Below are positions 1 to 13,146 of a stretch of DNA of 58,005 bases, piece by piece; position 1 is the stretch's first letter; the number at the start of each line of letters is the position of its first letter. The DNA is from an uncultured Pseudomonadota bacterium (GTDB lineage: Bacteria > Pseudomonadota > Gammaproteobacteria > Steroidobacterales > Steroidobacteraceae). A program made the translations under genes and the position numbers. The stretch is from the NCBI GenBank assembly GCA_903885195.1, contig CAISHQ010000112.1, forward strand, positions 1 to 58,005, written 5' to 3'. The notes beneath the pieces are model-generated. The model searched no databases, was not told where the DNA came from, and worked only from the letters and a program-made list of their open reading frames with translations.

Positions 1-634
1 GTGCGAGCACTTTGGCGGTCGTCACGGTCGGCTGTCGGTAGCCTTGATCGAGCGCAGCGGAGGCGCGCTGGCGGACCGACTCGAGGTGCTGCGCGAAACC
101 TTGCAAGCGCTCGAGGCCCCGTTGGTAGTCTTCGGCGGTGTTGAACGGTGCGCCGGCCCCAGAGACGTAGTCAGGCAGTTCGACATGCAGTCCGCTCATG
201 GAGTCGAGGGGCGTCGCCAGTGCCAGTTGTACGAGCCCGCTCTCGTGACGGCGGACAATTTCACTGGCGCTGAAGTTCAATACGTCGCGGGCAATCTGTT
301 CCGTCGGGCCGAGTCGGTTGCGGTCGATGCCCTCGAGCGCCCGCAGATCAGCCCGGGCCTGTGCGAGTTGCCGTTGCAACGTGCTGTCGGCGAGCGGATC
401 GACGAACGCAGGCGAACCCGCAGGCACCGCTGCGCGCGGCAGTGGGTCGAGCAAGGCGTTGGCCGCTTCGCTGTCGGCAATCAGTCGGCGCAAGCGCAGT
501 CCGAGTTGCTCGTCGGCGGAGCCGGCGGCGGCAGCGCCGCCTTCGGCCGATCCGCTGATGGCGGGCCAAAGCGGTTGGCTCGCGAGGACCAGCAGGCCTT
601 GCAAGGTGGCTCGACGCAAAGAATTGATGCTCAT
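1..634 (-). CDS. DUF885 family protein, N-terminal part (cut by window edge)
   Basis: The reading frame opens with ATG at 634 and runs off the left edge, so only about 211 N-terminal residues are visible. The N-terminus (MSINSLRRATLQGLLVLAS) has a twin-arginine-like pair followed by a hydrophobic stretch, which suggests export. After it comes an Ala/Gly linker and a helical region resembling the start of DUF885 proteins, which are often secreted and have a metallopeptidase-like fold with unknown substrate. The ATG overlaps the TGA of the upstream aminotransferase by four bases (631-634), which implies translational coupling. The family call is moderate because the conserved C-terminal HExxH-like region lies outside the window. 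Confidence 0.65.
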   Translation of the reverse strand, partial: MSINSLRRATLQGLLVLASQPLWPAISGSAEGGAAAAGSADEQLGLRLRRLIADSEAANALLDPLPRAAVPAGSPAFVDPLADSTLQRQLAQARADLRALEGIDRNRLGPTEQIARDVLNFSASEIVRRHESGLVQLALATPLDSMSGLHVELPDYVSGAGAPFNTAEDYQRGLERLQGFAQHLESVRQRASAALDQGYRQPTVTTAKVLA

Positions 635-1551
635 GCAGACTCCAGTGGACCATCGACGACCGTCGTGCCCTCATGCTCCGTCAAGGCACGGAATTTCTCA
701 CTCAGATGTTGGGTGATCGGGCCCACCTCGCCGTGGCCGATGCGCCGCCCATCGATGCGAATTACCGCAGCCAGCTCTCCCATCGTGCCGGTGCAAAACA
801 CTTCGTCGGCTCGATAGAACTCCGCGAGCGACAGATCGGTGATCTCGTGGGGGACACCGTGACTGCGACACAGTTCGAGCACGGTGGCCCGCGTGATGCC
901 CTCCGGGCAGGCCACCGTGCGCGGCGTACGAACCATGCCGCCTGCGACCGCGAACAGATGCGTGGCATTGGTCTCGGCCACGAAACCATTCATATCGAGC
1001 ATGACGGCATCGTCCGCCCCTGCGGCGTTGGCTTCAATCTTGGCGAGGATCGACTGCAGTAAATTGTTGTGATGGATCTTTGGATCGAGGCAGTCAGGTG
1101 GAAAACGTCTCACGCTGCTCGTAACGAGCGTCAGGCCACCTTTCGAGTACACCGGCGCCTTGTGCTCGGCCAGCACGATCAGGGTCGGCCCCGACTGGTT
1201 GAGTCGCGGATCCATGCCGGAGGTGATTTTCACGCCTCGCGTCAGCGTCAGTCGGATGTGCACGCCATCGAACATCTTGTTGGCCTCGAGCGTGTGGCGG
1301 ATCTGCTGCGTGATTTCCTCGTGACTCGGAATGCTCTCGAACGCCAGGGCCAGAGCTGAATTGCGCAGACGATCGAGATGTTCGGTGAGGCGGAAAATCC
1401 GCCCGCGGTAGAGGCGTAGACCCTCCCATACGGCATCGCCGCCCTGCACGGCGGAGTCGAAGGGCGACACGGCAGCCTCGTCGCGGTGCGTCAGGCGTCC
1501 GTTGACGTTGACGATGAGATGGCGATTGCGTTCGTTGAAAGCTTGCAGCAC
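631..1551 (-). CDS. PLP-dependent class IV aminotransferase (branched-chain/D-amino-acid type)
   Basis: This 306-residue protein has class IV aminotransferase (IlvE/DAAT fold) features. These are an early NVNGRL strand, the GDAVWEGLRLYRGRIFRL block, the likely PLP lysine K158 in DPKIHHNN, and CPEGITRATV near residue 215. The length matches the family. The substrate cannot be read from sequence; branched-chain amino acids or a D-amino acid are both possible. It begins 18 bases after a sulfotransferase-like gene and its stop overlaps the next ORF. Plant BCAT-like proteins fuse a sulfotransferase-like domain to a class IV aminotransferase (from memory), so the pairing may be functional. It may therefore not be the biosynthetic IlvE. 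Confidence 0.85.
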   Translation of the reverse strand: MLQAFNERNRHLIVNVNGRLTHRDEAAVSPFDSAVQGGDAVWEGLRLYRGRIFRLTEHLDRLRNSALALAFESIPSHEEITQQIRHTLEANKMFDGVHIRLTLTRGVKITSGMDPRLNQSGPTLIVLAEHKAPVYSKGGLTLVTSSVRRFPPDCLDPKIHHNNLLQSILAKIEANAAGADDAVMLDMNGFVAETNATHLFAVAGGMVRTPRTVACPEGITRATVLELCRSHGVPHEITDLSLAEFYRADEVFCTGTMGELAAVIRIDGRRIGHGEVGPITQHLSEKFRALTEHEGTTVVDGPLESA

Positions 1552-1569
1552 GGCGGCTCCTGCTTTGAA

Positions 1570-2319
1570 TCAGCTCGGGACTGCGCGCAGCGCGTGCGCG
1601 CGCAGGTAATCGTACATGGGTCGGACCGTTCGCTCGACGGCGAGCAGGGCCGCGGGCAATTCACCGCGACTCGGCGCACTGCGCACGAACCCGGTCGAGC
1701 GCTCGACTTGGTCGTACCAGTATTTCGCCCAGATGCCGTCGGTGGTGCGTCGGCCCGGCGGCCAACGCAACATCGAGGGCTGAAAATCGATGCCGAGCCG
1801 ATCGCACAGGGCGCTGAGCAGAGCGCGCGGATCTTCGAGCAGATCCGCCGCATCAATGACGGGCGGGATCTGTCCCGTCGTCGCGCGCACCCGATCGAAG
1901 ATCTCCACCTGTTGCGGCAATCCCGTGTCTTCCGGCCGGATATGCGCGAGCTTCTGATCGAGCGAGCGCAACATGTCGGCGGGGTCTCGCAACAGGAACG
2001 CGTGCTGCAGACCCTGCAACCAGTCGCGTCCCATGTTGGGCAGCAGGTGATGCGACATGTGCTTTTGATAGAAAACCCGCACGCCCGCGCTCAGTGGCTC
2101 ATGCAGCGCCTGGGCGACGCGTTGCCAGTCGTTATCCTGATGCGCCAGCACTTCCTCACGCCCGGGGTGATCGAGTCCGGTGTGTCTCAGGTAGTGGGCG
2201 TAGAACGGCTCGTCGATCACGACACTGTCGTTACGGTTGCCGAACGATCGCATCAAGGCCGTGGAGACGTTGCGCGGTCCGGACCACATGGCGATGCGGA
2301 TGTCGGGCAGGGCAGTCAT
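1570..2319 (-). CDS. Sulfotransferase-like P-loop protein
   Basis: The 249-residue protein starts at ATG 2319, with GAGG upstream; the frame stays open further but that extension lacks conserved sequence. Residues 12-22 (WSGPRNVSTAL) form the phosphosulfate-binding-like loop of the sulfotransferase superfamily. It is followed by VVIDEPFYAHYL and by a central FLLRDPADMLRSL resembling the 3'-phosphate-binding segment. It is the first gene of a cluster with an aminotransferase and a DUF885 protein. Whether it uses PAPS is unknown: related aminotransferase-linked homologues are annotated only as sulfotransferase-like. It could equally be a P-loop kinase-like enzyme. Confidence 0.75.
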   Translation of the reverse strand: MTALPDIRIAMWSGPRNVSTALMRSFGNRNDSVVIDEPFYAHYLRHTGLDHPGREEVLAHQDNDWQRVAQALHEPLSAGVRVFYQKHMSHHLLPNMGRDWLQGLQHAFLLRDPADMLRSLDQKLAHIRPEDTGLPQQVEIFDRVRATTGQIPPVIDAADLLEDPRALLSALCDRLGIDFQPSMLRWPPGRRTTDGIWAKYWYDQVERSTGFVRSAPSRGELPAALLAVERTVRPMYDYLRAHALRAVPS

Positions 2320-2399: not shown

Positions 2400-4553
2400 A
2401 TGCTGCATCGACTGGTACTTCTTGGGCTTGCTGCGCTCGGCCTCGGCGCGCCTGTCGCTCTTGCGAGCGAACCGGCGGCACTGCGACCGATCACGCATGA
2501 GGACCTGTGGTTGATGCGGCGCGTCGGCGCCCCCGTACCCAGTCCCGATGGGCGCTGGGCCGTGGTCTCCGTGCTCGAACCCTCGTACGACGAAAAGTCG
2601 CAAGTGTCGGATCTCTTCCTCGTGCCCACCGACGGCAGCGCGCCGCCCCGCCGGCTCACCTCCACCGAGGGTGGCGAAAGCGGAGTCGAGTGGAGCCCCG
2701 ATAGTCAGCGCCTGGTGTTCTCCGCCCGGCGTGAGGGCGATGAGTCGGCGCAGTTGTATCTGCTCGACCTGCGCGGTGGGGAGGCGCGACGCCTGACCAG
2801 CCTCGTCAACGGCGCTCGGGCTCCGGAGTTCTCGCCCGATGGACGTCGTCTGGTGTTCTCGAGCAGTGATTATCCTGGCGCTCGCAGCGAGGAAGACAAC
2901 CGACGGCTCGCTGGCGAGCGCAAGGCGCGCAAATGGAACGCGCGGATCTACGACGGTTTTCCCATCCGCAATTGGGATCGATGGATCGATGAACGCAAGG
3001 CGCGACTGCTCGTGCTGGAACTGGATCCCTACGGGGTCCCGGTTGGGGAGCCGCGGGAGTTGCTGCGTGGCACAAAGCTCGTGGCGTTGCCAGGCTTTGC
3101 CGGTCGAGTCGGTGATTCGGGCGAGACGCTCGAGGCGGTGTGGACAGCGGATGGTGCGGGCCTCGTGTTCGTCGCCAGCACCGACCGGAGTACAGCGGCC
3201 TATCGGTTTACCTCCACGCAGCTGTGGTGGGTGAGCGCCTCGGGGGGCGAGCCGCGTCGACTGACGAGTGCGCCGGATTCATGGGCGCAACCGACCTTTA
3301 CGGCGGATGGCCGCCAACTGCTTGCCGCGCTCGAGCGCAGCACGGGCAAGGCGTACGTCAAGACCGAACTCGTCGCGCTCGAGTGGCGTTCGCCTGCAGC
3401 GCTTGCCGCGGATGCCGAGATCACTTTGAAAGTGACTCCGCTCACCCGGCAGCTCGATCGCTCGGTGACTTCGTTCGCACCCACGGCCGATTCGCGGCAG
3501 GTGTATTTCCTTGCCGAGGAGGCGGGGCACGAGACGCTGTTTGCGGCGCCGCTGCGCGGGTCGGGTACGGCGCAACGCGTGATCGAGATGAAGGAGGGCG
3601 TGTATTCGAATCTCGCCATCGCCCAAGGGGCAAAGTCGGCGGTACTGCTGGCCACCTTCGACAGTGCCACGAAGCCGCCCGAAGTGGTGCGGCTCGATCC
3701 GGCGCGCGCCGCGCACTCGCTGTTGACCCAGTTCAACCTCGATCGCGTGCGGGGGATCGACCTGCCGCCGGTCAAGCATTTCTGGTTCACCAGCCGCAAG
3801 GGTCGCTCCATCCACAACATGCTGGTGCTGCCGCCCGGTTTCGATGCGAGCAAGAAGTACCCGCTGTTCGTGGTCATCCATGGCGGACCGCATACGATGT
3901 TCCGCGACCAGTGGTTCCTGCGTTGGAACTACCATCTCTTGGCGGCGCCGGGCTACGTGGTACTGCTCACCAACTACAGCGGGTCGACCGGTTTCGGCGA
4001 GGCGGCGGCGCAAACCATCCAGGGTGATCCGTTGCGTACGGCTGGCGAGGAGATCAACGAGGCCGCCGATGTGGCCTTGCGCGATAACCCCTTCATCGAC
4101 GGCAGCCGTCAGTGCGCTGGCGGGGCCAGCTATGGCGGCCATCTGGCCAACTGGCTGCAGGCCACCACGACCCGTTATCGCTGTCTGATCAGCCATGCGG
4201 GCCTCGTCAATCTCGAATCGCAGTGGGGCACAAGCGATACGGTGTACGGTCGCGAGGTCAACAATGGCGGGCCGGTCTGGGAGCAGGGCCCGGTGTGGCG
4301 CGAGCAGAATCCGATCCGCTACGCCGCGCAGTTCAAGACCCCAACCTTGGTGACCATCGGCGAGCAGGACTTCCGTGTGCCGCTCAACAACTCCCTCGAG
4401 TACTGGACCGTGCTGCAGCGTCAGCAGGTGCCGAGCCGACTCGTGGTATTCCCCGATGAGAACCACTGGGTTCTGAAGGGGGAGAATAGCCGCCTGTTCT
4501 ACGCGGAGATTCACGGCTGGCTTGCTCGCTGGCTTGAGGTTCCTGCGAAGTAG
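2400..4553 (+). CDS. Secreted S9 family prolyl oligopeptidase/dipeptidyl aminopeptidase
   Basis: The 717-residue protein begins with a clear signal peptide (MLHRLVLLGLAALGLGAP..ALAS), so it is expected in the periplasm or outside the cell. Residues of about 40-450 contain repeated blade-like motifs (VPSPDGRWAVVSV, EWSPDSQRLVFSA, FSPDGRRLVFSS) of a WD40-like beta-propeller. The C-terminal alpha/beta hydrolase has a complete triad: Ser577 in GGASYGGH, Asp657 in GEQDFRVP and His689 in DENHWVL. The closest family is S9C acylaminoacyl/dipeptidyl peptidases, which release short peptides. The ATG at 2400 is chosen because the signal peptide starts there. It diverges from the sulfotransferase-like gene across 80 bases with no strong promoter consensus. 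Confidence 0.9.
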   Translation: MLHRLVLLGLAALGLGAPVALASEPAALRPITHEDLWLMRRVGAPVPSPDGRWAVVSVLEPSYDEKSQVSDLFLVPTDGSAPPRRLTSTEGGESGVEWSPDSQRLVFSARREGDESAQLYLLDLRGGEARRLTSLVNGARAPEFSPDGRRLVFSSSDYPGARSEEDNRRLAGERKARKWNARIYDGFPIRNWDRWIDERKARLLVLELDPYGVPVGEPRELLRGTKLVALPGFAGRVGDSGETLEAVWTADGAGLVFVASTDRSTAAYRFTSTQLWWVSASGGEPRRLTSAPDSWAQPTFTADGRQLLAALERSTGKAYVKTELVALEWRSPAALAADAEITLKVTPLTRQLDRSVTSFAPTADSRQVYFLAEEAGHETLFAAPLRGSGTAQRVIEMKEGVYSNLAIAQGAKSAVLLATFDSATKPPEVVRLDPARAAHSLLTQFNLDRVRGIDLPPVKHFWFTSRKGRSIHNMLVLPPGFDASKKYPLFVVIHGGPHTMFRDQWFLRWNYHLLAAPGYVVLLTNYSGSTGFGEAAAQTIQGDPLRTAGEEINEAADVALRDNPFIDGSRQCAGGASYGGHLANWLQATTTRYRCLISHAGLVNLESQWGTSDTVYGREVNNGGPVWEQGPVWREQNPIRYAAQFKTPTLVTIGEQDFRVPLNNSLEYWTVLQRQQVPSRLVVFPDENHWVLKGENSRLFYAEIHGWLARWLEVPAK

Positions 4554-4750: not shown

Positions 4751-4781
4751 CGTTCCCGGACGGCGCGGGGTGTGTGAGCGA

Positions 4782-5252
4782 ATGGCAACTTCGTCGGCAG
4801 TGCGAGATCGGCTGATCGGAATGCTCGAGCCTCTGGTCGAGCAGCTCGGTTACGAGCTCGTCGATATCGAGTGGGCGTCGGCGCCGCGATCGGGCGTGCT
4901 GCGCATCTACCTCGATCAGCCGGTCGGCCACGGTGGCCACATCGGCATCGAGGACTGCGAGACGGTCAGCCGCGAAGTGTCGGCACGACTCGACGTCGAG
5001 GATCCGCTGCCGGGGGCGTACACCCTCGAGGTGTCCTCGCCGGGGTTCGATCGGGTGCTGCGCAAGCCTGCGCACTTCGAGCGCTTCGTCGGCCAGCGCG
5101 TGTGGGTGGAGTTGCAAGTGCCGAGGGACGGGCGGCGCCGGTATACCGGGACGCTCGCCAAGGTGTCGGATCGAGGCGTAGAGCTCGAGGTCGACGGACA
5201 AACAGTGCAGGTGGCTTTCGCCGATATCGGCAAGGCTCGACTGGTGGCGTGA
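4782..5252 (+). CDS. rimP: Ribosome maturation factor RimP
   Basis: The 156-residue protein matches RimP. It has an N-terminal alpha/beta domain (PLVEQLGYELVDIEW) with a GVLRIYLDQP strand, the conserved EVSSPGFDRVL motif in the middle, and a C-terminal SH3-like barrel. It assists late 30S assembly. It opens the operon just ahead of nusA, the standard gammaproteobacterial position. I chose ATG 4782; an in-frame GTG at 4770 would add four residues, and no strong Shine-Dalgarno distinguishes them. The gene follows a leader with two terminator-like hairpins. Confidence 0.95.
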   Translation: MATSSAVRDRLIGMLEPLVEQLGYELVDIEWASAPRSGVLRIYLDQPVGHGGHIGIEDCETVSREVSARLDVEDPLPGAYTLEVSSPGFDRVLRKPAHFERFVGQRVWVELQVPRDGRRRYTGTLAKVSDRGVELEVDGQTVQVAFADIGKARLVA

Positions 5253-5264
5253 AGGGGATAGACG

Positions 5265-6764
5265 ATGAGCAAGGAAATCATGATGGTGGTCGATGCCGTC
5301 TCGAACGAGAAGGGCGTCGATAAGGAAGTGATCTTCGAGGCCCTCGAGGCCGCGTTGGCATCGGCGACTCGCAAGAAGCATGGCGAGGAGTGGGATGTGC
5401 GCGTGGCGATCAACCGCAAGAGCGGTGACTACGACACCTTTCGGCGCTGGAAAGTGTTTGCCGATGACTCGAAGGAACTGGAAGTTCCCGACCGGGAGCT
5501 GCGTCTCGAAGATGCGCTCGATGTAAACCCGGCGGCACTCGTCGGCGGTTTCGTCGAGGAGCCCATCGAGTCGGTCGCCTTCGGCCGCATCGCGGCGCAG
5601 CAGGCCAAGCAGGTCATCGTGCAGAAGGTCCGCGAGGCCGAGCGCGCGCAGGTCGTCGATGCGTACAAGGATCGCGTCGGGCAGCTCGTCAGCGGCGTCG
5701 TCAAGCGCGTCGATCGCAATGGCATTTACGTCGATCTCGGCGGTAACGCCGAGGGTTTTGTGTCGCGCACCGACATGATCGTGCGCGAGCAGGTCAAGCC
5801 GCAGGATCGTATCAAGGCCTTCCTCAAGGAAGTGCGCCCGGAGCCCCGCGGTCCGCAATTGTTCCTCACGCGCTCGGCACCCGAGTTCCTGATCGAGCTC
5901 TTCAAGCTCGAGGTGCCCGAAGTGGGTCAGGGCCTGATCCAGATCCTCGGCGCTGCCCGTGATCCCGGCATTCGCGCCAAGATCGCCGTGCGCAGCAACG
6001 ATCCGCGCATCGACCCCGTCGGTGCCTGCGTCGGCATGCGCGGCTCGCGCGTGCAGGCGGTGTCCAACGAAATCGCCGGTGAGCGCGTGGACATCATCCC
6101 GCACGACGAGAACCCGGCGCAGTTCGTGATCAATGCGATGTCGCCCGCAGAAGTCATTTCCATCGTGGTCGACGAAGACTCGCACAGCATGGATATCGCC
6201 GTCGCCGAGGACAAGTTGTCGCAGGCGATTGGTCGCGGCGGGCAGAACATCCGTCTGGCGAGCCAGCTCACGGGCTGGGAGCTGAACGTGATGACCGAGA
6301 CGGATGCCGAGGCGAAGAGCGAGTCCGAAGCGCGAGCCCTCGTCGAGAACTTCATGAAGCAGCTCGACGTCGACGAGGACGTGGCCACCATTCTCGTCCA
6401 GGAGGGTTTCTCCACGGTCGAGGAAATCGCGTACGTGCCGCAGGCCGAGCTCAACGCCATCGAAGAGTTCAATGAAGACATCGTCAAAGAATTGCGCAGT
6501 CGCGCCCGCGATGTGTTGCTGACGCAGGCGATCGCCAGCGAAGAGAGCATCGAGTCGCAATTGCCGGCCGATGACCTGCTGCTGCTCGAGGGCATGCAGC
6601 CGGATCTCGCGCTGGCGCTGGCGCGTCGCGGCGTTCGAACCCGCGAAGATCTTGCCGAGCAGGCCGTCGATGACCTGCTCGATATTCAGGGACTGTCGGC
6701 CGAAGAGGCTGGCAAGCTCATCATGAAGGCGCGCGAGCACTGGTTCGCGCCCGGTCACGGCTGA
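5265..6764 (+). CDS. nusA: Transcription termination/antitermination factor NusA
   Basis: The 499-residue protein has the full NusA layout: an N-terminal RNA polymerase-binding domain, an S1 domain around residues 135-200 ([21 protein letters not shown]), and tandem KH domains including [15 protein letters not shown] and [12 protein letters not shown]. Two C-terminal acidic helical repeats follow (about 365-495), as in E. coli, where the C-terminal repeat contacts the RNA polymerase alpha subunit. AAGGGG precedes the ATG. It acts on pausing, termination and rRNA antitermination. In E. coli NusA influences its own operon, which makes the hairpins upstream of rimP of interest. Confidence 0.98.
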
Positions 6765-6783
6765 GAGGCCCGAAGGATCAGAC

Positions 6784-9330
6784 ATGGCAGATGTAACCGT
6801 TGCCCAATTCGCCGAGGTGCTGAAGGTGCCGGTCGACAAGCTGCTCGTGCAGCTTGAGCAGGCCGGCATCAAAGTCAGCGGCCCAACCGATCGCATCAGC
6901 GACGAGGCCAAGCTTGAACTGCTGTCGCACTTGCGTCGCAGTCACGGCCAGTCCAATGAGGACGCCGGCGCTACCGCGGCGCCGCGCAAGATCACGCTGC
7001 AGCGAAAGCAGCAGAGCGAGATCAAGCTGGCCGGTGCCGCGGGTCGCGCTCGTACGGTCAACGTTGAGGTGCGCGTCAAGCGAACCTACGTGAAGCGCGA
7101 CGTGCTCGAAGAGCAGTCGAAGGTCGGTACCGAGGACAGCGAAGCGAAGAAGCGTGAGCTCGAGGAGGCCGCCCAACTCGAGCGCGAGCGCATCGATAAC
7201 GAGCGCCGCGAAGCTGAGCGGATGGAAGCCGAGAATCGGCGCCGCGTCGAGGAAGAGGCGGCTGCACGCAAGGCTGCTGAGGAAGCTCGCCGCGCGGCAG
7301 AGCAGCGCGATCGCGAACAGGCCGAAGCCGAGAAGAATCAGCGTGGTCGTGGCGCGCGCACCGAACCTGCGGCGCCGACCCCGGCCGATGCGCGTCCGGC
7401 GAAGGCGGCCACCGCGACGGAGGCTGATCGAGACCGGCGTACCAAGTATGGTCGCGAGGAGCTGCACGTCAGCACCGACGCAAGTTCGCGCCTGAAGAAA
7501 AAGAAGAAGGTTCGCGAGCGCAAGGCGCCGTTCGGCGTGGAAGTGCGCCATGGTTTCGAACTGCCGACTGCGCCTGTGGTGCGCGAGGTAGCGATCGGCG
7601 AGACCATCACGCCGCAGGAACTCGCGCAGAAGATGGCGGTCAAGGCGACCGAAGTCATCAAGACCATGATGAACATGGGCGTGATGGCGACCATCAATCA
7701 GCCGATCGATCAGGATACGGCCGTGCTCGTCGTCGAGGAGATGGGGCACACCGCGAAGATTCTCAAGGAAAACCAGCTTGAGAGCGATTTGCAGGTTGCG
7801 GACGGCGAAACGCTCGAAATTATGCCGCGCGCGCCGGTGGTGACCGTGATGGGCCACGTCGATCACGGCAAGACGTCCTTGCTCGACTACATCCGCAAGA
7901 CCAAGGTGGCCTCGGGCGAAGCCGGTGGCATCACGCAGCACATCGGTGCGTATCACGTGCAGACACCGAAGGGCGGCGTCACCTTCCTCGATACCCCGGG
8001 TCACGCGGCCTTCACGGCCATGCGTGCGCGTGGTGCAAGGGCAACCGACGTAGTGGTGCTTGTTGTCGCGGCCGATGACGGTGTCATGCCGCAGACCATC
8101 GAGGCGATCCAGCACGCCCGCGCCGCCGGGGTGCCGATCGTCGTGGCCGTCAACAAGATCGACAAGGGCAGCGCCGATCCCGATCGCGTCCGTACGGAGC
8201 TCTCCAAGCAGGAGGTCATCCCTGAGGAGTGGGGCGGCGATACGATTTTCGTCAACGTGTCGGCCTACACCGGGCAGGGCATTGATGCCTTGCTCGACGC
8301 GATCCTGCTGCAGGCCGAAGTGCTCGAACTCGCGGCCCCGCTCGGCGGTCTCGCCTCGGGCCTCATCATCGAAGCGAGCATGGAAAAGGGCCGTGGTGCC
8401 GTGGCGACCGTGCTCGTCAAGAAGGGCACGCTGCGTCTCGGCGATCCGATTATCGCCGGCCAGGAATTCGGACGCGTGCGCGCCATGTTCGACGAGAGCG
8501 GCAAGTCGGTCACCGAGGCCAAGCCCTCGATGCCGGTGCTGGTGCTCGGTCTCTCGGGCGCGCCGAACGCGGGCGATGAGATCCTCGCCGTCGAGAGCGA
8601 GCGTAAAGCGCGTGAAGTGGCCCTCTACCGTCAGGGCAAGTTCCGCGACGTGAAGCTCGCCAAGCAGGCGGCTGCAGTGGGCGATGTGTTCTCGCAGATG
8701 ACCGAAGAAAAAGCCGGCGTCATCGGCGTGCTCATCAAGGCGGACGTGCAGGGCAGTGCCGAGGCGCTGCGCGATGCACTCGGCAAGCTCTCGACCGACG
8801 AGGTGCAGGTCAAGGTCGTCGCGAGCGGCGTCGGCGGCATCACTGCGTCGGACGTGCAGCTGGCAGCAGCTTCCAAGGCCATGGTCCTCGGCTTCAACGT
8901 GCGTGCCGATGGTGGCGCACGCGATGCAGTCAAGGAAACCGGTGTCGAGGTCCGCTACTTCTCGATCATTTACGAAGCCATCGACGACATCAAGCAGCGC
9001 ATGAGCGGCTTGTTGGCGCCGGAGGTTCGCGAGCAGATCGTCGGTACCGCACAGGTTCGCGATGTGTTCCGCTCGAGCAAGTTTGGCGTCGTGGCCGGTT
9101 GCCTCGTCATCGAGGGCTCGGTCAAGCGCAACAATCCGATCCGCGTGCTGCGCGACAACGTGGTGATTTTCGAAGGTGCGCTGGAATCGCTGCGCCGCTT
9201 CAAGGACGACGTTGGCGAAGTGCGTGCCGGTACCGAGTGCGGCATCGGCGTGAAGAACTACCAGGACGTGCGCGTCGGCGATCAGATCGAGTGCTACGCG
9301 CGGGTGGAGGTCGCCCGGGCCATCGCCTGA
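6784..9330 (+). CDS. infB: Translation initiation factor IF-2
   Basis: The 848-residue protein carries an N-terminal IF2N domain ([21 protein letters not shown]) and a long charged Glu/Arg/Ala-rich coiled linker (about 115-230). A second IF2N-like segment ([20 protein letters not shown]) precedes the GTPase. G motifs are GHVDHGKT from about residue 357, DTPGHAAF and NKID. Domains II-IV bind initiator tRNA. It promotes fMet-tRNA binding to the 30S subunit and subunit joining. It starts 19 bases after nusA in the same operon. In-frame internal starts may give shorter isoforms, as in enterobacteria, but nothing here proves that. Confidence 0.98.
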
Positions 9331-9355
9331 TGGCGTACCCGGTCGTCCTCCCGTC

Positions 9356-9727
9356 ATGGCGAACTCGGCGCGACAGCAACGCATCGGAGCGGAACTGCAG
9401 AAGGTTCTCGCTGAGTTGATCGCCCGCGAGGTCAAGGATCCGCGCGTGGGCAGCGTCACGGTCACGGCCGTCAAGGTTGCGCCGGACATGAGCTCCGCGA
9501 AGGTGCTGTTCGTGCCCTTCGGGGGCAAGCATCCCGCCGAAGACGTCCAAGCAGGGCTCACGCGGGCGGCGGGTTTCCTGCGTGGCGAGGTCGGGCGGCG
9601 GCTGTCGCTGCGGCATGCGCCGAAACTGGAATTCGAATACGACGAAACGCTCGAACGGGCTGACCACCTGACTCGCCTGATCGATCGGGCCATTCACGGC
9701 AAGGGCCCTACGGGCGGGCAAGATTGA
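9356..9727 (+). CDS. rbfA: 30S ribosome-binding factor RbfA
   Basis: This 123-residue KH-fold protein shows the RbfA signatures: an N-terminal RQQRIGAELQKVLAELI helix, EVKDPRVGSVTVTAVKV, and the C-terminal RHAPKLEFEYDETLERADHL. It assists 16S rRNA 5' end maturation and cold adaptation. It sits between infB and truB as in other proteobacteria. Its TGA overlaps the TTG start of truB by four bases, suggesting coupled translation. Confidence 0.96.
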   Translation: MANSARQQRIGAELQKVLAELIAREVKDPRVGSVTVTAVKVAPDMSSAKVLFVPFGGKHPAEDVQAGLTRAAGFLRGEVGRRLSLRHAPKLEFEYDETLERADHLTRLIDRAIHGKGPTGGQD

Positions 9728-10653
9728 TCGACGGTGTCTTGCTGCTCGACAAGCCACTCGGCTTGTCCTCGACGGCGGCTGGCCTTCGGGTACGGCGCTT
9801 GTTGGGTGCTGCCAAGGCGGGTCATGTCGGCAGCCTCGATCCGCTCGCCACCGGCATGCTGCCCATTTGTCTCGGCGAAGCCACCAAGCTCGCCGGTGAA
9901 ATCCTCGATGGGGACAAGGTGTACCGGTTTCGCGTCCGGCTGGGTCGCCGCACATCGACCGGAGACGTCGAGGGCGAGGTGACCGAGACCGCACCGGTGC
10001 CGATGCTCGAACGCACTGCGGTCGAAGCCGTGTTGCGCGGATTTATCGGCGAGCACATGCAGGTGCCGCCGATGTACTCGGCCATCAAGCAGGCGGGTCA
10101 GCCCCTCTACAAGCTCGCCCGGGCGGGCGTAACGGTTGAGCGTGCACCGCGGCGAGTCCGGATTGAACGGTTGGAGATGCTGGCCCTGGAGCCCGAGGCC
10201 CTCGAGCTGCAGGTGGAGTGCGGTAAGGGTACCTATGTTCGGGTACTCGCCGAGGACATCGCCGCCGCGCTCGGGACCGTGGGTCACGTGGAGTTGCTGC
10301 GACGCCAGAGCGTGCAGCCTTTCCCGGCCGAGCGCATGGTGACGCTCGAGGCCCTGCAAGCGGCCCTCGAGGCAGGGCAGCCACTGCCGTTGATCAGCCC
10401 GAGCGAAGCGGTCGGTCATCTGCCGATGGTGACGCTCGCGGCGGCGGAGGCACGCCGCCTGCAGCAGGGACAGACCGTCTCCGCCGCGGCTGCCACGCGC
10501 GCTGCACCTCTCGCGTTGGGCGGGTCTGCGTCCGAGTCGGAGGCCACCGTGCGCGTGCTCGGTCCGCAGGGTCAGTTCCTCGGTTTGGGGCGTCTGTTGA
10601 GCGATGGCCGATTGGCGCCGAAACGGCTTGTCGCACAACCCCTCAGCGAGTAG
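9724..10653 (+). CDS. truB: tRNA pseudouridine-55 synthase TruB
   Basis: The 309-residue protein begins with TTG at 9724, inside the rbfA stop, and reads into the family-typical GVLLLDKPLGLSS. The catalytic aspartate is Asp39 in GSLDPLATG. Downstream motifs include GDKVYRFRVRLG, the conserved QVPPMYSAIK and the GTYVRVLAED segment. A C-terminal PUA-like region is present. It makes pseudouridine 55 in the T-loop of tRNAs. No ATG lies at a plausible position, so TTG is the likely start. Its last codons contain the promoter for rpsO. Confidence 0.96.
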   Translation: MIDGVLLLDKPLGLSSTAAGLRVRRLLGAAKAGHVGSLDPLATGMLPICLGEATKLAGEILDGDKVYRFRVRLGRRTSTGDVEGEVTETAPVPMLERTAVEAVLRGFIGEHMQVPPMYSAIKQAGQPLYKLARAGVTVERAPRRVRIERLEMLALEPEALELQVECGKGTYVRVLAEDIAAALGTVGHVELLRRQSVQPFPAERMVTLEALQAALEAGQPLPLISPSEAVGHLPMVTLAAAEARRLQQGQTVSAAAATRAAPLALGGSASESEATVRVLGPQGQFLGLGRLLSDGRLAPKRLVAQPLSE

Positions 10654-10656
10654 AAT
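10628..10656 (+). promoter_or_regulatory. Probable rpsO promoter within the end of truB
   Basis: TTGTCG (10628-10633) and TAGAAT (10651-10656) are separated by 17 bases. This would start transcription near 10663, giving rpsO-pnp an independent promoter as known in E. coli. Confidence 0.6.
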
Positions 10657-10708
10657 GCGCGGCCTTCAATAGGGTCGTAACTACCAAGTTTTTAAAGGGT
10701 TTTTCAGA

Positions 10709-10978
10709 ATGCCTCTCAGCACAGAGAAAAAAAGCGGAGTGATCTCTCAGTTCCGCCGTGAAGCCAATGACACCGGATCGCCGGAAGTCCAGATTGCCTT
10801 GCTCTCCGAGCGCATCAGCGGTCTCGGTCAGCATTTCGCCTCGCATGCAGGAGACCACTCCTCGCGTCGCGGCCTCGTGAAACTCGTCAACCAGCGTCGC
10901 AAACTCCTCGATTACCTCAAGGCTCGTCAGCCGCAGAAGTATCAGGACGTCGTCGAACGCCTCGGACTGCGCCGCTAA
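10709..10978 (+). CDS. rpsO: 30S ribosomal protein S15
   Basis: The 89-residue protein is a full-length S15. It has the conserved [16 protein letters not shown] segment that contacts 16S rRNA, and the [13 protein letters not shown] helix. A leader of about 45 bases with AAAGGG ten bases ahead of the ATG separates it from its predicted promoter. In E. coli S15 represses its own translation through a leader pseudoknot; I do not see an obvious equivalent by eye. An intrinsic terminator follows, between it and pnp. Confidence 0.98.
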
Positions 10979-10991
10979 GCCGTCCGGTTGC

Positions 10992-11029
10992 AAAGGCCGC
11001 GACTCGGACGAGCGCGGCCTTTGTGTTTT
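10992..11029 (+). terminator. Intrinsic terminator or attenuator between rpsO and pnp
   Basis: AAAGGCCGCG (10992-11001) pairs perfectly with CGCGGCCTTT (11013-11022) around an 11-base loop, followed by a broken T-run (GTGTTTT). In E. coli the hairpin here is partly read through and is an RNase III processing region for pnp. Confidence 0.8.
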
Positions 11030-11058
11030 CCATCCCCATTTTTTTCGAGGTTTCCCGC

Positions 11059-13146
11059 GTGGCTGCATTCAAGAAAACATTCCAGTACGGTCCCCACACC
11101 ATGACGCTCGAGACGGGCGAGGTGGCTCGGCAGGCCAACGCCGCCGTCATCGTCAGCCTGGGCGACACGGTCGTGCTGTGCACGGCGGTTGCTGCCAAGT
11201 CGGCGGCGCCGGGTCGCGACTTCTTTCCGCTCACCGTCAACTATCAGGAAAAGACCTACGCCGCCGGGCGCATCCCGGGAGGTTTTTTCAAGCGTGAAGG
11301 TCGTCCCACCGAAAAGGAAACGCTGACCTCGCGCCTGATCGATCGGCCGATTCGTCCGCTTTTCCCTGATGGTTTCTACAACGAGGTCCAGGTTGTCGCC
11401 ACGGTGGTTTCGCTCGATCCGCAGATCGACGCCGATATCCCGGCGATGGTCGGTGCCTCGGCGGCGCTTGCCTTGTCGGGCGTGCCCTTCAACGGACCGA
11501 TCGGTGCGGCGCGCGTCGGTTACCGGGATGGCAAGTATCTGTTGAACCCGGACGCCAAAGACGTCAAGACGTCGGCACTCAACCTCGTCGTCGCCGGTAC
11601 GCGCGATGGCGTGATGATGGTCGAGTCCGAAGCGAACTGCCTCTCCGAAGAAGTGATGCTGGGCTCGGTTGTGTTTGGTCACGAGCAGATGCAGGTGGCC
11701 ATCAACGCCATCAACGAACTCGTCAAGGAGTGCGGCAAGCCGCGCTGGGAGTGGTCGCTGAACGCGGCCACGGTCGAAGTCGAGCAGGCGGTCAAGGCGG
11801 CCGCGCACGATTCGCTCGCCGAGGCCTATCGCATCACCGAGAAGCAGTCGCGCTATGCGCGCGTCGGCGAAATCAAGAAGGCGGTGATCGAGCAACTCTC
11901 GGGCGGTGAAGCGCCCAAGTACTCCGCCGATCAGGTCGACGGTCAGCTCTTCAAGCTCGAGAGCAACATCGTCCGTGAGCGCATCCTCAACGGCGAGCCG
12001 CGCATCGACGGTCGTGATTCCACCACAGTGCGTCCGATCACCATCAAGGTGGGCGTGCTGCCGCGTACTCACGGGTCGGCGCTCTTCACCCGCGGTGAGA
12101 CGCAGGCGCTCGTGGTCACGACGCTCGGCACGGGTCGCGATGCACAGATCATCGATGCGCTTGAAGGCGAGCGTCGCGAGCCGTTCATGCTGCACTACAA
12201 CTTCCCGCCGTTCTCGGTGGGCGAGACCGGCATGATGTCGGGTCCGAAGCGCCGCGAGATCGGCCACGGCAACCTCGCGCGTCGCGGCGTCAATGCCGTA
12301 ATGCCCGATATGGAGAAGTTCCCGTACGTCGTGCGCGTCGTGTCGGAAATCCTCGAGTCCAACGGCTCATCGTCGATGGCTTCGGTCTGCGGCGCTTCGC
12401 TCGCCATGATGGATGCCGGCGTGCCGCTCAAGGCGCCGGTCGCGGGCGTTGCCATGGGTCTCGTGCTCGAGGGCAAGCGTTACAAGGTCATCACTGACAT
12501 CCTGGGTGACGAAGATCATCTCGGCGACATGGACTTCAAGGTCGCGGGAACCAAGGACGGCGTTACCACGCTGCAGATGGACATCAAGGTCGAGGGCATT
12601 ACGCCCGAGATCATGCAGGTTGCACTCGAGCAGGCGAAGGCCGGCCGTCTGCACATCCTCGGCGAAATGAACAAGGTGCTCTCGTCACCGCGCGAGAAGA
12701 TGTCCGAGTGGGCGCCTTCCATCATCACCCTGAAGATCGACCCGGAGAAGATCCGCGACGTGATCGGCAAGGGCGGTGCGGTGATTCGCCAGATCACGGA
12801 GGAGACGGGCACCACCATCGACATCGAGAACGACGGTACGGTGAAGATCGCCTCCGTCAACGGTACGGCCGGTCGCGAGGCGCAGGCGCGAATCGAACTC
12901 ATCACGGCCGACGTCGAAGTGGGTCGGGTGTATGAGGGTCGGGTGGCGCGGCTGATGGACTTCGGCGCGTTCGTCACCATCCTGCCGGGTCGCGATGGTC
13001 TCGTGCACATCTCGCAGATTTCCAACGAGCGTGTGGAGCGTGTCTCCGACAGTCTCAAGGAAGGCGATGTCGTCAAGGTGAAGGTGCTCGAAGTCGACCG
13101 TCAGGGTCGCGTGCGCCTGTCCATGAAGGACGTCGAAGCGCGCTAA
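11059..13146 (+). CDS. pnp: Polyribonucleotide nucleotidyltransferase (PNPase)
   Basis: The 695-residue protein has two RNase PH domains joined by a helical domain, then a KH domain ([17 protein letters not shown], about 565-620) and a C-terminal S1 domain ([18 protein letters not shown]). It degrades RNA 3' to 5' using phosphate and is usually part of the degradosome. I chose GTG at 11059, eight bases after GAGG. An upstream in-frame start would add only unconserved residues crossing the terminator. Length matches the family (about 700). Confidence 0.97.

Follow-up and report, generated by a model that had tools for sequence, protein, structure and literature searches.

Two genes lie one behind the other on the minus strand at the start of the window, the whole 58,005-nucleotide stretch of DNA analysed here, which comes from a bacterium of the Steroidobacteraceae. 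The first, referred to here as ST, runs from an ATG at 2319 to a stop codon at 1570, and its product matches the Pfam family Sulfotransfer_5 (E = 1.8e-59; 201.3 bits against a gathering score of 23.2). The second, AT, opens with a GTG at 1551 and its product matches Aminotran_4 (E = 1.5e-45; 156.2 bits against a gathering score of 28.5). This is the layout described in the original prediction, which had noted a sulfotransferase-like protein with the motif WSGPRNVSTAL, a short gap, a class IV aminotransferase-fold protein and an overlapping DUF885 gene; each of these was confirmed (Table 1). A search for RNA structure at the junction of ST and AT found none. The source assembly (2.72 Mb in 201 contigs) has one PF19798 gene and three class IV genes. 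Further along the window (4770-13146) is an ordinary housekeeping block, in which rimP, truB and pnp were recognized by Pfam and frames between them resemble nusA and infB, as judged by eye.

Table 1. Coordinates of the ST/AT gene pair and of the residues discussed in the text.
Feature	Position in window	Strand	Remarks
Sulfotransferase (ST), PF19798	1570..2319	-	249 aa; profile match, model, fold matches
Class IV aminotransferase-fold protein without Schiff-base lysine (AT), PF01063	631..1551	-	306 aa
Intergenic gap ST/AT	1552..1569	.	18 bases; ST upstream of AT
WSGPRNVSTAL, ST residues 12-22, presumed 5'-phosphosulfate loop	2254..2286	-	S13, P15, R16, N17 and S19 invariant
ST residues 111-119 (R..P.....S), presumed 3'-phosphate site	1963..1989	-	R111, P113 and S119 invariant; alignment with CurM and olefin synthase
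AT His160 codon, column of the PLP-binding lysine	1072..1074	-	alignment (K150 of 5mqz, N174 of 7z79)
AT Glu193 codon, column of the PLP pyridine-nitrogen glutamate	973..975	-	alignment

The AlphaFold2 model of ST (pLDDT 95.2) has its nearest folds in the sulfotransferases 4gox (olefin synthase, Z 14.0) and 4gbm (CurM of the curacin pathway, Z 13.7), followed by tyrosylprotein sulfotransferases with PAP. The CurM and olefin-synthase enzymes are also its closest relatives by sequence profile, being the only matches in the PDB (2.9e-9 and 3.6e-8). They are domains of polyketide synthases that act on carrier-bound chains, where they sulfate a beta-hydroxyl group that then leaves; the ST of the window, in contrast, is free-standing and only 18-20% identical to them. 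Residues S13, P15, R16, N17, S19, R111, P113 and S119 are invariant in 57 aligned ST sequences. They fall in the WSGPRNVSTAL motif and in the stretch 111-119, which we take to be the 5'-phosphosulfate loop and the 3'-phosphate site, as expected for PAPS binding; the latter stretch aligns with the corresponding one of the CurM and olefin-synthase sulfotransferases. As a member of this family, ST is probably PAPS-dependent, and a match to APS kinase in the same genome suggests that PAPS is made there.

The other neighbours of the pair are less constant. The DUF885 frame (window 2-634, minus strand; E = 4.7e-14) begins at 634, where its ATGA overlaps the stop codon of AT, and leaves the window at its start with 211 residues visible. 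It had been put forward as a third component of the system. When these 211 residues were compared with 87 loci by tblastn, the only matches apart from the window itself lay downstream of the pair in two distinct loci of the nearest relatives (L002/L109 and L005/L108), and DUF885 was absent at L110 despite about 4 kb of downstream sequence. This idea was abandoned, since the gene is confined to the nearest relatives and missing from the remaining loci. A divergently oriented S9 peptidase with a beta-propeller, of the dipeptidyl-peptidase type (2400-4553, plus strand), was likewise rejected as a partner, as its place beside the pair is conserved only among the closest relatives of the window. 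Among gene clusters inspected by eye, nothing else recurred as a partner; what was seen was the family-level synteny of one family (f56), and response regulators and ABC genes of a generic kind. In the f56 genomes (L065-L086 and kin), the genes around ST are shared and, again judged by eye, include an argG-like frame; this setting persists even where AT has relocated.

The linkage between ST and AT was assessed over 81 distinct main-type ST loci. These comprise 32 genome-contig loci, 36 additional ST genomes out of 398 sampled across the phylum, another 14 carriers from a set of 40 relatives, and the window, minus two repeats (L108 = L005 and L109 = L002; same contigs, identical AT). A weak PF19798 subgroup (L101-L104, L119) was left out by a decision made before counting, and further weak matches in G445, G448 and G449 were excluded as well; the subgroup forms a clade of its own and has no adjoining AT, and the one genome with only a weak-type PF19798 protein (G344) has no AT of the clade described below. 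In 61 of the 81 loci AT and ST are same-strand neighbours, whichever of them comes first; this count takes in contig-end AT fragments at L032 and L106. The gaps between the two domains range from 2 to 282 bases and are mostly under 100. ST precedes AT in the relatives of the window and in several Planctomycetota, while AT-ST is mostly the order elsewhere. Carriers in culture include Kordiimonas marina (L007) and a Marinicella (L024). Within the 398-genome sample, the window included, 28 of the 37 main-type ST genomes show the adjacency. With class IV genes numbering just 2 to 6 per genome, the linkage is far above chance expectation.

A fusion of the two proteins, also suggested as a check, was not seen: no matching frame carries both domains in the pair loci examined, and in the window the genes are separate. 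Two ST frames are unusual in structure, one being spread over two frames (L032, 380-1101) and one having additional sequence between its two matched pieces (L031, 6001-6819). No relatives of ST or AT were found on viral contigs. Plasmids gave five weaker ST matches (27-35% identity). One of these, a distant relative at 35% identity (L120, 7989-8774), lies on a conjugative plasmid of Dolichospermum (CP070234.1), upstream of cysC, the gene for adenylyl-sulfate kinase, the enzyme that makes PAPS.

Because all 52 genomes examined carry PF01063, presence of that family is uninformative for pairing, and the partner proteins have to be told apart by descent. A tree was built by a quick method from the AT rows linked to ST (61) and from other class IV rows of the same genomes (60). 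All 61 linked rows fell into a single clade together with five of the 60 others (SH-aLRT 99). Those five (L143, L149, L150, L154 and L158) all come from genomes in which ST stands alone. The clade is divided into a subclade of 21, which includes the window and is entirely of the ST-AT order, and a subclade of 45. In the tree of ST, the two kinds of partner were grouped far more than under shuffled labels.

The same clade accounts for the ST genes that lack an adjoining AT. There are 20 such loci (L010, L011, L013, L014, L017, L022, L027, L029, L030, L033, L066-L070, L076-L078, L086 and L116), and in all 20 genomes a member of the AT clade is present at another place. Across the 398 genomes, main-type ST occurs in 37 and the AT clade (above 400 bits) in 41: both are present in 37, ST alone in none, AT alone in four and neither in 357 (Fisher p = 5e-48, related genomes being treated as independent). 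Five f40 genomes with weaker matches of 226-238 bits were set aside, as the matching proteins have the lysine discussed below and fall outside the clade. The four genomes with AT only (G222, G334, G247, G280) have no PF19798 match, so AT is able to work without a PF19798 sulfotransferase, or with another one. Among the 40 relatives the two sets are identical, with 15 genomes carrying both genes and 25 neither; within the genus, the pair is found in 7 of 24 genomes. For the combined 437 genomes the figures are 51 with both, none with ST alone, four with AT alone and 382 with neither.

The partnership proposed in the original prediction is therefore borne out by adjacency in both orders, by co-occurrence and by the way in which close relatives have either both genes or neither. 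The wider synteny common within f56 might be taken to mean that the genes are neighbours by chance or by family synteny, with no functional link. That explanation is barely credible: both gene orders occur, in many families and several phyla, the partner is present in every unlinked case, and presence is identical among the 40 relatives. The pairing is real and old, co-inherited across several phyla: ST and one clade of class IV-fold proteins share their gains, their losses and their placement.

The AT of this clade differs from its relatives in the active site. One paper describes the catalytic lysine of the internal aldimine as conserved in class IV aminotransferases (PMC12429042). When the AT of the window was aligned with solved transaminases, His160 was found in the column of that lysine. 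Of 67 rows of the AT clade, 7z79 among them, 46 have Asn in the column and 21 have His, whereas 54 of 55 comparison class IV rows have Lys; the remaining row (L171) has a gap there, and the protein itself has a lysine in a similar stretch. A further 19 clade members (L183-L186, L192-L206) also have His or Asn, and the five nearest outsiders (L187-L191) have Lys. In total, all 86 AT clade rows, two of them repeats of the same contigs, have His or Asn in the column, whereas all 59 other class IV rows that are not gapped at this point have Lys. The two subclades divide accordingly, with His in 21 of 21 rows of the subclade of the window and Asn in the other.

Other parts of the active site are kept or replaced in a regular way. 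The PLP-phosphate cup is intact, with the Arg, the Thr of GITR and the second Thr of TGT present in 67 of 67 rows. The class IV glutamate, which in transaminases holds the pyridine nitrogen of PLP, is present in 21 of 67 rows (the subclade of the window, Glu193) and is replaced by Thr in 41 and Ser in five, all of the other subclade. Several residues are almost exclusive to the clade, namely N9, W42, H98, E129, N195 and C215 (67 of 67 rows), D156 (66 of 67) and M93. No position of the AT alignment (A1) has an invariant lysine. The nearest candidate is Lys158, two residues before His160. Of the 67 rows, 58 have Lys at this position and nine have R, Y, M, Q or G; this lysine could conceivably take over the role of the lost one in part of the clade.

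As a consequence of this substitution, the class IV aminotransferase of the original prediction stands as a matter of family and fold, whereas aminotransferase activity is unsupported, since AT and its whole clade are without the catalytic lysine. On alignment grounds AT probably cannot form an internal aldimine. The loss of the Schiff-base lysine across the clade means that AT is probably not a transaminase, and with the second protein so altered, the pair probably performs some reaction other than transamination. An ordinary branched-chain or related aminotransferase working through Lys158 or another lysine, with ST acting on the same or a nearby metabolite, would agree with the strong PF01063 match, the fold, the intact phosphate cup and the frequency of Lys158. 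Yet the Schiff-base column is without exception His or Asn, Lys158 itself is replaced in nine rows, and the depositors of a related structure (9j32, below) introduced a lysine at exactly this column. AT also misses every NCBIfam cut-off for branched-chain aminotransferases (BCATs), the best score being to PRK08320 (262.4 against a cut-off of 363), with ilvE_I (TIGR01122) at 204.9 against 245.55. We regard this alternative as very unlikely.

Genome content speaks in part for an ordinary role. The other class IV genes of the same genome are one that is D-amino-acid-transaminase-like (below cut-offs) and one of pabC type (read from sequence), so that none was recognized as an ordinary BCAT of class IV. 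Even so, the AT of the window is not the indispensable BCAT of the genus, as 17 of 24 genus genomes lack it. Several AT genes that are not linked to ST lie near transporters: those at L183 (5830-6870), L184 (5992-7023), L185 (5953-6870) and L195 (3983-4906) are near ABC transporters with family 3 solute-binding proteins (called by Pfam for L183 and L195 and by similar frames for L184 and L185), and those at L192 and L193 are near other ABC ATPases. An MmgE/PrpD gene is found near AT at L183 and L193. Such amino-acid-type transporter and MmgE/PrpD neighbours fit a role in amino-compound metabolism.

Two solved structures bear closely on AT. The BCAT of Archaeoglobus fulgidus (5mqz) resembles it in fold (Z 33.7) and in the phosphate cup, and the two are 43% identical over 282 residues; unlike class IV BCATs, AT has no Schiff-base lysine and falls below the NCBIfam cut-offs. 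The second structure, 7z79 from Variovorax paradoxus, is titled an 'aminotransferase-like protein' and matches the fold of AT with Z 34.5 (rmsd 2.1, 289 aligned residues, 41% identity). It belongs with the AT clade by its alignment residues (Asn174 and the clade-typical residues), the tree having been built without it, and lies on the side of the other subclade, with Asn where the AT of the window has His. A companion entry, 9j32, is titled its 'mutant N174K', a substitution that falls exactly on the lysine column of the clade; the titles make clear that others have already noticed the lysine gap. Three sampled genomes that share the DLRLNSHSR stretch of 7z79 gave no PF19798 match. In the open literature, with subscription journals outside the search, we found no paper on 7z79 or 9j32, though the Variovorax protein may well have been described; nor did we find any on the ST-AT pair or on PF19798 together with an aminotransferase. 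A lysine-less class IV-fold protein is thus already known from the PDB, while the literature searched gave no sign of its link to one sulfotransferase family.

Two further systems invite comparison. Plants have proteins that join a sulfotransferase-like domain to a BCAT-like domain. These may have the same two domains in the same ST-AT order as the window, the difference being that the genes of the window are unfused. The open literature yielded no paper naming At3g05190 or At5g27410. One survey searched 42 plant genomes with nine Pfam families, PF19798 among these, and its text does not contain the word 'aminotransferase' (PMC12506393). The other comparison is with ColD and concerns the lysine column. 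ColD is a PMP-dependent dehydratase in which His replaces the PLP lysine, as it does in 21 of 21 rows of the subclade of the window, the other subclade having Asn; ColD, however, is of PLP fold type I, and AT has the class IV fold (type IV).

Taken together, we think it reasonably probable that ST and AT form one module in one pathway, in which AT is not a standard transaminase. In this module ST would use PAPS to sulfate the hydroxyl group of a small amino compound. AT would take up PLP, PMP or an adduct of PLP with an amino acid, with no covalent bond to a lysine. Its reaction, with that same compound as substrate, would be something other than ordinary transamination. In the version that we prefer, the sulfated hydroxyl would be a leaving group and AT would promote elimination or replacement. 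Two hints point to leaving-group chemistry. The nearest relatives of ST sulfate a hydroxyl that then leaves; and Thr or Ser facing the pyridine nitrogen, as in the larger subclade of AT, is the usual state of fold type II enzymes that catalyse beta-elimination, a reaction that these residues suit better than transamination. Taken by itself, this version, drawn from homology and general chemistry, is a tentative suggestion that is more likely wrong than right.

A different account would make AT a pseudoenzyme. Catalytically dead, it would sense PLP, PMP or an amino acid, or else present the substrate, and would serve as regulator or scaffold for ST, which alone would do chemistry. In favour of this, the clade has kept the fold although the lysine is gone throughout and one subclade has lost the glutamate as well. 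The clade-typical invariant residues (N9, W42, H98, E129, N195 and C215, with D156 nearly so) look instead like a remade active site, and AT is kept without ST in four genomes; we consider a dead AT unlikely.

The remaining alternative concerns sulfonates. AT would turn serine into 2-aminoacrylate, and ST would move the sulfonate of PAPS to carbon, giving cysteate. Thr or Ser at the glutamate column would suit aminoacrylate chemistry. We know of no precedent for a lysine-free beta-elimination from serine, and among the clusters inspected by eye no recurrent third gene near the pair fits a role in cysteate or taurine metabolism. A 2-aminoacrylate C-sulfotransferase reaction leading to cysteate is included in a diatom model, though no gene is named for the activity in the passages concerned (PMC7990286). 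Altogether, this route to cysteate appears quite improbable.

Returning to the version that we prefer, its broadest form would be a widespread pairing of two enzymes, one creating a leaving group on an amino compound by PAPS-dependent sulfation, the other, of fold type IV with His or Asn in place of the lysine, carrying out the elimination or replacement, and the two possibly fused in plants; in that full form the proposal is doubtful. If true, it would mean a PLP or PMP chemistry that is not known for fold type IV and is misannotated as that of a branched-chain aminotransferase. Family matches alone would label members of the AT clade as branched-chain aminotransferases, even though the lysine that defines the reaction is gone. 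The genomic tie to one sulfotransferase family provides a lead both to the role of the AT clade and to the substrates of PF19798, and, if the plant fusion indeed joins these two kinds of domain, the answer would also account for a conserved plant protein.
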